Shown here in pieces: positions 10,456 to 13,151 of a stretch of DNA of 64,000 nucleotides; within the stretch, counting starts at the first letter, position 1, and the number at the start of each line of letters is the position of its first letter. The translations under genes were made by a program, and so were the position numbers. The DNA lies in contig NZ_JAPDOD010000009.1 of NCBI RefSeq assembly GCF_027587205.1, forward strand, positions 124,001 to 188,000, written 5' to 3'. Below the pieces are notes generated by a model. It was not told the origin of the DNA. It did not search any database and worked only from the letters and a program-made list of their open reading frames with translations. The stretch comes from Solirubrobacter ginsenosidimutans. Its GTDB lineage: Bacteria; Actinomycetota; Thermoleophilia; Solirubrobacterales; Solirubrobacteraceae.

Positions 10456-10513
10456 ATGCTAATCGCCTTCGTACCGGGTGTCAACGGACTTTTGCGTCTA
10501 AAGCTCGCAAAAG
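10456..10513 (-). promoter_or_regulatory. Sigma70-like promoter plus CTTTTGCG-N9-CGCAAAAG inverted repeat
   Basis: On the minus strand: -35 TTGACA (10479-10484), exactly 17 nt, -10 TAGCAT (10456-10461), driving the ThuA/GSDH gene with a leader of about 77 nt. A perfect 8-bp inverted repeat with a 9-nt spacer (10489-10496 and 10506-10513) sits 4 nt upstream of the -35, the usual place for an activator site. The same arrangement recurs at 13095-13151. The element also lies upstream of the divergent lipoprotein gene at 10605. Confidence 0.65.
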
Positions 10514-10604
10514 GCAAATACCTCTCATGAGGACTTTTCATGTGTCCGTTCCACTCATCTGCCCGGCTAGGCTGGCGCTCGGTCATCGAGGTTTGAGGAG
10601 AGCC

Positions 10605-11177
10605 ATGCGCAGAGCGCAATTGAGGGCAGCAGCCAGTGTCCCGTTGGTCGCGGTGATGCTCGCCGGCTGCGGCGGAGACAAAGATCCGCCCAAGGTCACC
10701 GCGGGCAAAATCGTCAGCGGGGACACGGAAAACGGCATGAAGCTCAAGGTCGAGACGTTCGTCCCGGCGGCGTCTGACCCGACGCTGAAGAGCCTCGAAG
10801 CGTTCCGAGCCAAGAGCGGCTATCCGGCGGTCGACTACCACCGGGTGACGGCGGACAACACGAAGGGCGCCATCCCCGACCGCATCCGCGATGTCACCTT
10901 CGCCAAGGATGCCAACGCGATCGCGACGGGGCAGGGCACCGAGGCACGTTTTGCGTGCGACGCGTTGCAATATGAGTGGCCGCCGGTGGAGCCGCGCACC
11001 ACGACGCAGACGTACGACGAGCTTATGAAGAAGGTCTGCGCGATTCAGCCCAACAAGGCGGACTCGGTGGCCCCGGGCTCCCGCGCGGTGTACTACCTCG
11101 TCACCGACCGCTCGTTCGGCCAGCGCGGGATTCGCGGGATGAGCATCTTCGGGCCCCGCTCCGAGCAGCTGAAGTAG
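10605..11177 (+). CDS. Putative lipoprotein of unknown function
   Basis: 190-residue protein. The start at ATG 10605 is chosen because TTGAGGAGAG lies directly upstream and the N-terminus then forms a classic lipoprotein signal: Arg-rich head, hydrophobic core, lipobox LAGC at about residues 17-20. The mature part is polar, with no transmembrane segment and only two further Cys (FACDAL and KKVCAI), which might form a disulphide. I do not recognise the family. It diverges from the ThuA/GSDH gene, is convergent with the 11230-13053 gene, and is followed by a bidirectional hairpin. Confidence 0.75.
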   Translation: MRRAQLRAAASVPLVAVMLAGCGGDKDPPKVTAGKIVSGDTENGMKLKVETFVPAASDPTLKSLEAFRAKSGYPAVDYHRVTADNTKGAIPDRIRDVTFAKDANAIATGQGTEARFACDALQYEWPPVEPRTTTQTYDELMKKVCAIQPNKADSVAPGSRAVYYLVTDRSFGQRGIRGMSIFGPRSEQLK

Positions 11178-11182
11178 ACGCC

Positions 11183-11216
11183 GGCGCCGCGACGGTCGAG
11201 TGACCGCCGCGGCGCC
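11183..11216. terminator. Bidirectional terminator hairpin
   Basis: 15-bp stem with one A.C mismatch and a 4-nt loop (11183-11197 and 11202-11216), filling the 52-bp gap between the convergent lipoprotein and cupredoxin genes. It can serve both strands. Confidence 0.65.
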
Positions 11217-11229
11217 TGACGTGACTGCC

Positions 11230-13053
11230 TTACGGCGTCGTCGTCGAGAGCGTGAACGTCAGCGACTTGCTGTACGTCCCGCTCCGCAGCGGCTCGTTGG
11301 CGCTGACCGACTGCTTGAACGAGATCGTCACGGCGTCGTGGGCGATCTCCTTCGCGTAGGTCAGGATCGTCAGCGGCGTCGCGAGCCCGGTCACCGGCGC
11401 GAAGACCGACGTCGGGTGCGCGGCGTTGGTCGCCTGCGCCTGGATCGGCTGCTGCAGCGAGCGATCCCCGTTGATGAGGTGCCCGACCGCGTCGGCGCTC
11501 GCGTCGTAGACGGTGAGCGTCGCGTCGCCGGCAGTGCTCGTGATGTCGGCCGACAGCGTCGCCGTGTAGTCACCCGCGATGCCCGGCACCAGCCCGCCGA
11601 AGACCGGCGAGTTGCCCAGGATGAGCGACAGCGTCGGGGAGACGTTGCCGGTGACGTTGCCCGTCGTGACCGTCTGCGTGGGCGTCGGGGTCGGGGTGGG
11701 CGACGGCGTGGGTGTGACGGTCGGTGTGGCCGTCGGCGTCGGCGTGGGTGTCGGCGTCGGCGTGGGAGTCGGCGTCGGCGTGGGTGTCGGCGTCGGCGTG
11801 GGAGTCGGCGTCGGCGTGGGAGTCGGCGTCGGCGTGGGAGTCGGCGTCGGCGTGGGTGTCGGCGTCGGCGTGGGTGTCGGCGTCGGCGTGGGAGTCGGCG
11901 TCGGAGTCGGCGTCGGCGTCGGCGTCGGCGTCGGCGTGGGAGTCGGCGTCGGCGTGGGAGTCGGCGTCGGCGTAGGAGTCGGCGTCGGCGTAGGAGTCGG
12001 CGTCGGCGTAGGAGTCGGCGTCGACACCGCCTGGACGATGACCGTGCCGGTCATCTCCGGGTGCGTCCCGCAGACGAACGTGTACGTGCCCGGCGTGGTG
12101 AAGGTGCAGTAGCCCTCCCAGCCCGACGGCTGCGCGAACGCCGGCATCGGGGGCGCATCGTTGGGGTCGACGCTGCCGACCACCGTGGCGGCCTTCGTCT
12201 GCGGGCACAGCGCGGGCGCCGGTCCGCTCGGGAAGGTCACGTTGTGCGCGCTCGTGCCGGACGGGTACGCGAACGTCACCCGCTCACCGGCCGTGATCGT
12301 GACGCTGTTGTCCGTCTCGCTGGACTGCGAGGCGTCCTGGAACCAGTTGTGCGTGCCGTCGTGCGCGTCGATGCGCGGGCCGGTCGGCGTCGCGGTCGGC
12401 GTGGGCGTCGCGGTCGGCGTGGGCGTCGGCGTCGCGGTCGGCGTGGGCGTCGGCGTCGCGGTCGGCGTCGGCGTGGGCGTCGCGGTCGGCGTCGGCGTAG
12501 GCGTCGCGGTCGGCGTCGGCGTAGGCGTGGGCGTCGAGGTCGGCGTGGCCGTCGGCGTCGGCGTCGGCGTCGCCGAGTCCGACACGACGATCGTGCCCGT
12601 CATCTCGGCGCCGTGCGCCGAGCAGAAGAACGTGTAGGTGCCCGCCTTGTTGAACGTGCAGTAGCCCTGCCAGCCGGGCGGGATCGGGAAGGCCGGCATC
12701 GGCGCGACGCCGTCGGCGTCCAGCGGCGTGCCGACGGCGTCAGGCGACTGCACCGTCTGGTTGCAGACGCTCGGCGTCGGGCTTTCGTCGAAGAAGACGA
12801 CGTTATGCGGCGCGAAGTTGGAGTCGCTGCCCGACGGCGACCGGAAGGTCACGGTGCCGCCGACCGCGATCTCGACCTGACTATCGCCCGTGGTGCCCGC
12901 GTCGTCCTGGAAGAAGTTGTCCCCCGTGTGGAAGGCGGCCGTAGGCGGCGCAGCGGACTGAACCGCGTCTGTTGGTTGCCCCCAAGCCAAGGCCGGTACG
13001 CCCACGACGGCGACCGCCGCGCATACCAACCACGGCAAGAACGTCTTCCTCAT
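11230..13053 (-). CDS. Secreted two-cupredoxin protein with long Thr-Pro linker
   Basis: 607-residue exported protein; ATG 13053 is preceded by GGAGGGGG and followed by a signal peptide much like that of the 2785-4524 protein (LPWL...ALAWG). Two cupredoxin domains keep all copper ligands (HNV ... CSAHGAEM, then HNV ... CGTHPEM). A TPTPTATPT linker joins them, and a run of about 115 residues of nearly pure TP repeats leads to a C-terminal module (about 463-607) ending PLRSGTYSKSLTFTLSTTTP. That module matches the end of the ThuA/GSDH fusion protein (16 of the last 20 residues identical). The domain order suggests an extracellular copper protein held away from the cell by a stiff linker (inference). 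Confidence 0.87.
   Translation of the reverse strand: MRKTFLPWLVCAAVAVVGVPALAWGQPTDAVQSAAPPTAAFHTGDNFFQDDAGTTGDSQVEIAVGGTVTFRSPSGSDSNFAPHNVVFFDESPTPSVCNQTVQSPDAVGTPLDADGVAPMPAFPIPPGWQGYCTFNKAGTYTFFCSAHGAEMTGTIVVSDSATPTPTPTATPTSTPTPTPTPTATPTPTPTATPTPTPTATPTPTPTATPTPTPTATPTPTATPTGPRIDAHDGTHNWFQDASQSSETDNSVTITAGERVTFAYPSGTSAHNVTFPSGPAPALCPQTKAATVVGSVDPNDAPPMPAFAQPSGWEGYCTFTTPGTYTFVCGTHPEMTGTVIVQAVSTPTPTPTPTPTPTPTPTPTPTPTPTPTPTPTPTPTPTPTPTPTPTPTPTPTPTPTPTPTPTPTPTPTPTPTPTPTPTPTPTPTPTPTPTPTPTPTPTATPTVTPTPSPTPTPTPTQTVTTGNVTGNVSPTLSLILGNSPVFGGLVPGIAGDYTATLSADITSTAGDATLTVYDASADAVGHLINGDRSLQQPIQAQATNAAHPTSVFAPVTGLATPLTILTYAKEIAHDAVTISFKQSVSANEPLRSGTYSKSLTFTLSTTTP
11690..12025. repeat. In-frame tandem DNA repeat encoding a TPTP linker
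   Basis: On the plus strand the motif GGCGTCGGCGTGGGAGTC (18 bp) and close variants repeat many times; the minus strand encodes (Thr-Pro)n. Several adjacent units are identical at DNA level, so the array could change length by slippage or recombination in steps of 6 bp without breaking the frame. Confidence 0.9.
12382..12572. repeat. Second in-frame Thr-Pro/Ala tandem repeat
   Basis: Repeated GTCGGCGTGGGCGTCGCG-like units between the two cupredoxin domains of the same gene, encoding TPTPTATPT. Shorter than the array at 11690-12025 but of the same kind. Confidence 0.85.
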
Positions 13054-13094
13054 ACCGACAACTTCCCCCTCCGATGGACTGCGAACCGCGCGGA

Positions 13095-13151
13095 AGCCTA
13101 CGGACGCACCCAGCACAAGTCAACGACTTTTGCGCACCTAACCCGCAAAAG
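13095..13151 (-). promoter_or_regulatory. Sigma70-like promoter plus CTTTTGCG-N9-CGCAAAAG inverted repeat
   Basis: On the minus strand: -35 TTGACT (13118-13123), 17 nt, -10 TAGGCT (13095-13100), leader about 35 nt. A perfect inverted repeat (13127-13134 and 13144-13151, 9-nt spacer) begins 3 nt upstream of the -35. Arms, spacer length and position match the element at 10456-10513, while the spacer bases differ, as expected for a protein dimer site. Confidence 0.65.

Follow-up and report, generated by a model that had tools for sequence, protein, structure and literature searches.

Two copies of an inverted repeat, each placed just upstream of a promoter, raise the question of which protein reads them and how many genes it reaches. 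The copies lie in a 64,000-nt stretch of the Solirubrobacter ginsenosidimutans genome (contig NZ_JAPDOD010000009.1, positions 124,001 to 188,000; hereafter, the window), where the repeat CTTTTGCG-N9-CGCAAAAG is present exactly at 10489-10513 and 13127-13151, in front of genes for a secreted ThuA/GSDH protein and a secreted double cupredoxin, respectively. With a confidence that we put somewhat above even, the comparisons described below suggest that the repeats are operators of a dimeric, sugar-type regulator of the ROK family encoded outside the window, which would most likely activate both genes.

The two sites remain the sole matches in the window even when up to three mismatches are allowed; the expectation from shuffled sequence is 0.07 matches, and two matches were obtained in 0 of 100 shuffles. 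On the minus strand, site 1 is followed after 4 nt by TTGACA-N17-TAGCAT (10484-10456) and site 2 after 3 nt by TTGACT-N17-TAGGCT (13123-13095), and the spacer bases of the two repeats differ. A preliminary description of this DNA had read these traits as a dimer-type, promoter-linked site 3-4 nt upstream of the promoter, and each particular holds, with the addition that the sites are conserved in other species. Rather than being scattered at random, matches to the promoter-linked motif are tied, in the genomes searched, to one gene class, and the position just upstream of the -35 element would suit an activator, as that description had suggested. It had overlooked that site 1 occupies a divergent intergenic region common to a plus-strand, lipoprotein-like gene.

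Conservation of the sites is directly observed. The closest matches to the window are Solirubrobacter soli (L001, G001), in which several flanking genes are 80-95% identical to those of the window, and S. pratensis (L002, G002); in S. pratensis and in a further genome of the genus, G139, the core cluster is kept within different surroundings. A 23-bp core, TTTTGCG-N9-CGCAAAA, occurs within one mismatch at two places in S. soli, namely the cupredoxin and ThuA promoters, while both sites are weaker in S. pratensis and both are present in G139, so that both are retained in all four species with an identified core cluster. The TTGACA element is likewise retained at the ThuA/GSDH orthologues of S. 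soli, S. pratensis and G139. When the eight core sites were aligned with one isomerase-type promoter of S. pratensis, CAAAAG, next to the promoter, was found in 9/9 sites and the distal TTTTG in 7/9. The cupredoxin promoters also carry a block, GCAAAAGTCGTTGACTTG, which is invariant in the four species, is followed by (T/C)GC and extends past the -35 element into the spacer; the S. pratensis isomerase-type promoter has TTGACTTGTGC in common with them.

The genes reached by this type of site were delimited by searching seven Solirubrobacter genomes with TTNTG-N12/13-CANAAG-N3/4-TTGAC, hereafter the main architecture, in which the distance of 3 or 4 nt to the -35 element is imposed by the pattern. 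The search returned 15 matches in five of the genomes (two of the matches being G136 copies of G135 sites) and 0 for the reversed control. All 15 downstream genes encode secreted proteins: 11 ThuA, 3 cupredoxin and 1 xylose-isomerase-like, as assigned by Pfam for 13 genes and by N-terminal sequence shared with these for the remaining two. When 399 genomes of the class were searched with a stricter CTTNTG form, four matches came from three genomes, all Solirubrobacter, against 0 in the control; this draw did not include S. pratensis or G139. The gene set had been described as a small secreted-protein regulon of two genes. A regulon is likely, and the restriction to two genes does not hold: the idea appears right in kind and wrong in marker and size, the set probably being larger, and the common trait of its members is their N-terminal function (ThuA/GSDH, cupredoxin, isomerase-like).

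The distal arm of the repeat bears on another explanation, in which the repeats belong to the promoter itself, as an A/T-rich, UP-element-like stretch without a dedicated regulator that spread by promoter duplication among paralogous genes. The A-tracts just upstream of -35 in a stretch of 71% G+C are in keeping with this, and the ThuA genes are paralogues whose promoters may be related by descent. Searching with GCAAAAGNNNTTGAC at up to one mismatch yielded 41 matches in seven genomes, of which 30 were fetched as loci; those inspected that are promoter-like lie mostly upstream of ThuA genes or within the core cluster. Among the 26 distinct sequences in these loci, 14 have a -10 element, and 10 of these 14 show the distal TTNTG at N12/N13, unasked by the pattern, against 0 of the 12 without a -10 element. 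An A/T-rich stretch would require no such arm, and the dyad stands at a fixed distance before genes that are not paralogous in their N-terminal parts (ThuA, cupredoxin, isomerase-like), which makes the UP-element explanation very improbable.

The candidate regulator family, which the preliminary description had left open, emerges from the gene neighborhoods of relatives. In G139 and G135, a ROK gene (PF00480 plus a helix-turn-helix) is found directly upstream of a site-bearing ThuA gene, and the site, CTTATG-N13-CATAAG, lies between the two genes, 3 nt before TTGAC in the ThuA promoter. The genes common to these two 15-kb stretches, L100 and L101, are the ROK gene (71% identity), the ThuA gene (81%) and a cupredoxin-like gene with the C-terminal module described below (73% over 145 aa); the cupredoxin-like label rests on likeness, since Pfam left the L100 gene unmatched and scored the L101 gene below threshold. 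Apart from ROK, no regulator was found in both of these CTTATG-type stretches. For other site-bearing ThuA genes, in G139, G135, S. soli and S. pratensis, the distance to a ROK gene is about 7 to 17 kb. In S. pratensis, three ROK genes occur in a single region (contig 1, 376-431 kb) together with four sites of the main architecture and two more whose repeat encloses the -35 element. Three ROK paralogues also stand together in S. soli (C7:354-360 kb); the members of such trios are mostly 50-93% alike among the best five matches listed for each protein. Of the 7 site loci in the three genomes with listed ROK genes, 5 have a ROK gene no more than 25 kb away, and such zones make up about 8% of the sequence.

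One half of the repeat recurs in a second setting. The pattern CTTTTGNTTGAC-N17..19-TANNNT has 12 matches, several of them orthologous copies, in all seven Solirubrobacter genomes (control, 0) and is confined to these seven among 146 genomes of the family. Eleven of the matches are at Gfo/Idh genes, ten of which are divergent from a ROK gene, and one match has no such gene. At the 11 Gfo/Idh promoters the half-site CTTTTGC abuts the -35 element, where a bound protein would be expected to block the promoter and act as a repressor. The Gfo/Idh start codon follows 7 to 9 nt after the -10 element (L285-L295), so that the mRNAs are probably leaderless. Two of these promoters (G139 C269:49412 and G135 C378:87884) contain a second small dyad, TTCGG-N6-CCGAA, between -35 and -10.

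Several observations weigh against a ROK regulator. Neither the 64-kb window nor the fetched surroundings of the S. soli and G139 core clusters yielded a ROK gene, and the S. soli ROK gene closest to the core is 133 kb away. ROK genes also lie within 25 kb of 7 of 37 ThuA genes without a site; the comparison of distances (49 ROK matches, sugar kinases included; Fisher p 0.011) is rough, because these 37 genes were hand-picked. Among 46 ROK-family genes (sugar kinases counted in, start calls automatic), a single one has a strong full dyad of this type upstream, and the right-hand arm is mostly weak at the Gfo/Idh promoters, being intact solely in two S. pratensis cases. The main architecture has no match in G137 or G138, two genomes that do carry the ROK-Gfo/Idh half-sites, and the orthologous sites and the G135/G136 copies are not independent observations. 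The distance of ROK genes from the core cluster and their presence near site-less ThuA genes would also fit a dimeric regulator of another family (e.g. LacI, GntR or LuxR-type) encoded elsewhere, with ROK proximity reflecting shared sugar metabolism only, and GntR, TetR and LuxR-type genes are present in the window. We regard such a binder as quite unlikely, given that no other regulator was found in both CTTATG-type stretches and that every one of the seven genomes has the half-site in front of Gfo/Idh genes, most of which are divergent from a ROK gene.

Under the favored ROK reading, a ROK dimer responding to a sugar-type ligand would bind the 25-bp site 3-4 nt upstream of -35 and assist RNA polymerase in transcribing the genes for the secreted ThuA/GSDH protein and the secreted cupredoxin, and possibly also the divergent lipoprotein-like gene. 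We infer the ROK protein as binder, and with it the paralogue concerned, the ligand and the sign of control, from the patterns above. The core promoters look near-consensus, which leaves no obvious need for an activator and is a further point against the reading as stated; such promoters could fire unaided, as would be expected if the same ROK protein acted with the opposite sign, standing in the way of RNA polymerase immediately upstream of -35 at the core sites until a sugar ligand released it. Most of the ROK regulators that have been studied are linked to sugar metabolism and catabolite repression, and several are repressors (PMC4856308, PMC9599254, PMC9104551). However, 10 of 11 predicted NagR operators overlap the -35 or -10 element (PMC9599254), whereas the sites here stop 3-4 nt short, a placement that matches the CysR-activated promoters (PMC2580772), and we hold repression at the core sites to be unlikely. 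A wider proposal, which we consider doubtful, is that a set of paralogous ROK proteins reads one half-site in two geometries. Placed upstream of -35, it would switch on the secreted sugar-oxidizing and copper electron-carrier genes; placed across -35, it would switch off the leaderless operon of Gfo/Idh and sugar-uptake genes. If so, the cell would toggle between oxidizing sugar outside and importing it.

A literature search at the level of listings and the opening lines of abstracts found no described Solirubrobacter regulon. What is proposed here is a Solirubrobacter regulon whose operator and target set are specified, with two promoter geometries and a candidate family for the regulator; if the ROK assignment is true, the source genome should carry Gfo/Idh genes that have CTTTTGCTTGACA promoters and adjoin ROK genes.

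Table 1. Positions in the window of the candidate operators, their promoters and the surrounding genes.
Feature	Position	Strand	Basis and remarks
Candidate operator 1, CTTTTGCG-N9-CGCAAAAG	10489..10513	-	Exact match; divergent region between ThuA/GSDH gene and lipoprotein-like gene
Counterparts of operator 1, same place	S. soli L001:7115; S. pratensis L013/L096; G139 L099
-35 of ThuA/GSDH gene, TTGACA	10479..10484	-	Sequence; 4 nt from operator 1
-10 of ThuA/GSDH gene, TAGCAT	10456..10461	-	17 nt from -35; TAGCAT also in S. soli and S. pratensis
Candidate operator 2, CTTTTGCG-N9-CGCAAAAG	13127..13151	-	Exact match; same place in S. soli (L001:4582), S. pratensis and G139
-35 of cupredoxin gene, TTGACT	13118..13123	-	Sequence; operator 2 ends 3 nt before
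-10 of cupredoxin gene, TAGGCT	13095..13100	-	17 nt from -35
Secreted ThuA + GSDH + PKD protein with C-terminal module	6919..10371	-	Pfam PF06283, PF07995, PF18911; start at 10371 from a simple gene caller, open reading frame could open at 10395
Secreted double cupredoxin with TP-rich linkers and C-terminal module	11230..13053	-	Pfam PF00127, two stretches; module homologous to that of the ThuA protein
Small lipoprotein-like gene, divergent, sharing operator 1	10605..11177	+	Lipobox-like VMLAGCGG, by eye
C-terminal module (~140 aa)	6922-7341 and 11233-11652	-
Multicopper oxidase	1304-2788	-	Pfam
Second cupredoxin protein	2785-4524	-	Pfam
MMPL protein	4638-6818	-	Pfam

Downstream of the ThuA/GSDH gene, the block of multicopper oxidase, second cupredoxin and MMPL genes (1304..6818) keeps its gene order in S. 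soli, and a PKD protein is also part of the window cluster. No copy of the repeat was seen in the regions upstream of these three genes. A Pfam search with the lipoprotein-like gene, run on a longer open reading frame, gave no match; in S. soli and G139 its orthologues lie next to the ThuA gene, and a similar divergent start is present in S. pratensis.

The regulon had originally been defined by a C-terminal module that both site-bearing genes share. Both products do have signal-peptide-like N-termini (read from the sequence, with no tool), and their modules are 58% identical over 140 aa, in agreement with the claim that they are exported proteins ending in the same module. As a marker of the regulon the module fails: it has 104-234 matches per genome across the seven Solirubrobacter genomes (150 first-look candidates being scored in three of them) against 0-4 full sites, and it is fused to very varied secreted enzymes. 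A protein-database search returned 267 proteins, and the Pfam domains among the 120 listed include ThuA, xylanases, peptidases and isomerases. With such numbers and such varied partners, the module cannot define a regulon of this size, and two things are to be set apart: the sugar-oxidation genes defined by the operator, which are few, and the secreted proteins sharing the module, which form a very large family. Searches with the module gave best E-values of 0.04 against Pfam and 0.19 against PDB sequences; its predicted beta fold resembles chaperone-usher pilus subunits. A WxL domain was suspected, to which no tool pointed.

Membership of the ThuA family was tried as a marker of the regulon and rejected: CANAAG-N3/4-TTGAC occurs on either strand in 0 of 60 upstream regions of other ThuA genes (L149-L208), picked among the ThuA matches listed. 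The best promoters of these genes carry different sequences, and three paralogue promoters (L168, L176 and L188) have different dyads before TTGACA, e.g. GATTGTCTGACAATC and GAGAGCGCTCTC, which suggests several regulators for the paralogues.

Across the family, the palindrome at up to one mismatch occurs in 14 of 146 genomes. At the matches outside S. soli collected in L021-L035, which omit three of five G082 matches and the second G139 match, no TTGAC was found within 11 nt on either side of the repeat and tblastn detected no module; the two-mismatch S. soli matches (L010, L012, L014) have no evident target. Two near-perfect palindromes of G139, each within one mismatch, stand before a cupredoxin-like gene (C802:25841, L106) and before a module gene (C337:37036, L105), both without TTGAC at the usual distance. 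In G082 and G084 (L028, L029, L034, L035), dispersed hairpins of the form TTTTGCGTC...GACGCAAAA, or near copies, with G-rich/C-rich flanks are seemingly unrelated.

The proposed operators can be compared with described ROK systems. Known ROK sites are inverted repeats with a T-rich 5' region and an A-rich 3' region (PMC2580772, PMC4856308), a feature shared by CTTTTGCG-N9-CGCAAAAG. A close likeness is to CysR/SsuR, actinobacterial members of the family: in Corynebacterium glutamicum, four promoters activated by CysR carry the repeat 3 bp ahead of -35, with the 3' half the better conserved, and overlap of the sites with the promoter is described for a repressed gene (PMC2580772). The 4-nt and 3-nt distances in the window, the stronger conservation of the proximal half and the half-sites touching -35 at Gfo/Idh promoters resemble these traits. 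The CysR motif is required in vivo and specific binding in vitro was not shown (PMC2580772), so that this precedent has a gap too. CysR/SsuR differ in having another half-site, 10-bp arms and a 6-8 bp spacer, against 8-bp arms and 9 bp here, and in serving sulfur genes with O-acetylserine-type effectors rather than sugar-type genes (PMC2580772). The RokB site of Streptomyces coelicolor, TTTGTTC-11X-GAACAAA, is close in layout to TTTTGC-N11-GCAAAA here, with the same T-rich 5' and A-rich 3' parts; it overlaps a start codon and serves other targets, and RokB binding was demonstrated by surface plasmon resonance (PMC4856308), whereas binding at the sites here is predicted. Finally, XylR, Mlc, NagC and NagR also use inverted repeats and have ROK genes beside sugar genes (PMC9104551, PMC9599254, PMC2580772), the repeats of the first three being T-rich/A-rich as here (PMC9104551, PMC2580772), but their sequences are different and their sites fall mostly within the promoter or between promoter and gene (PMC9104551, PMC9599254, PMC2580772).

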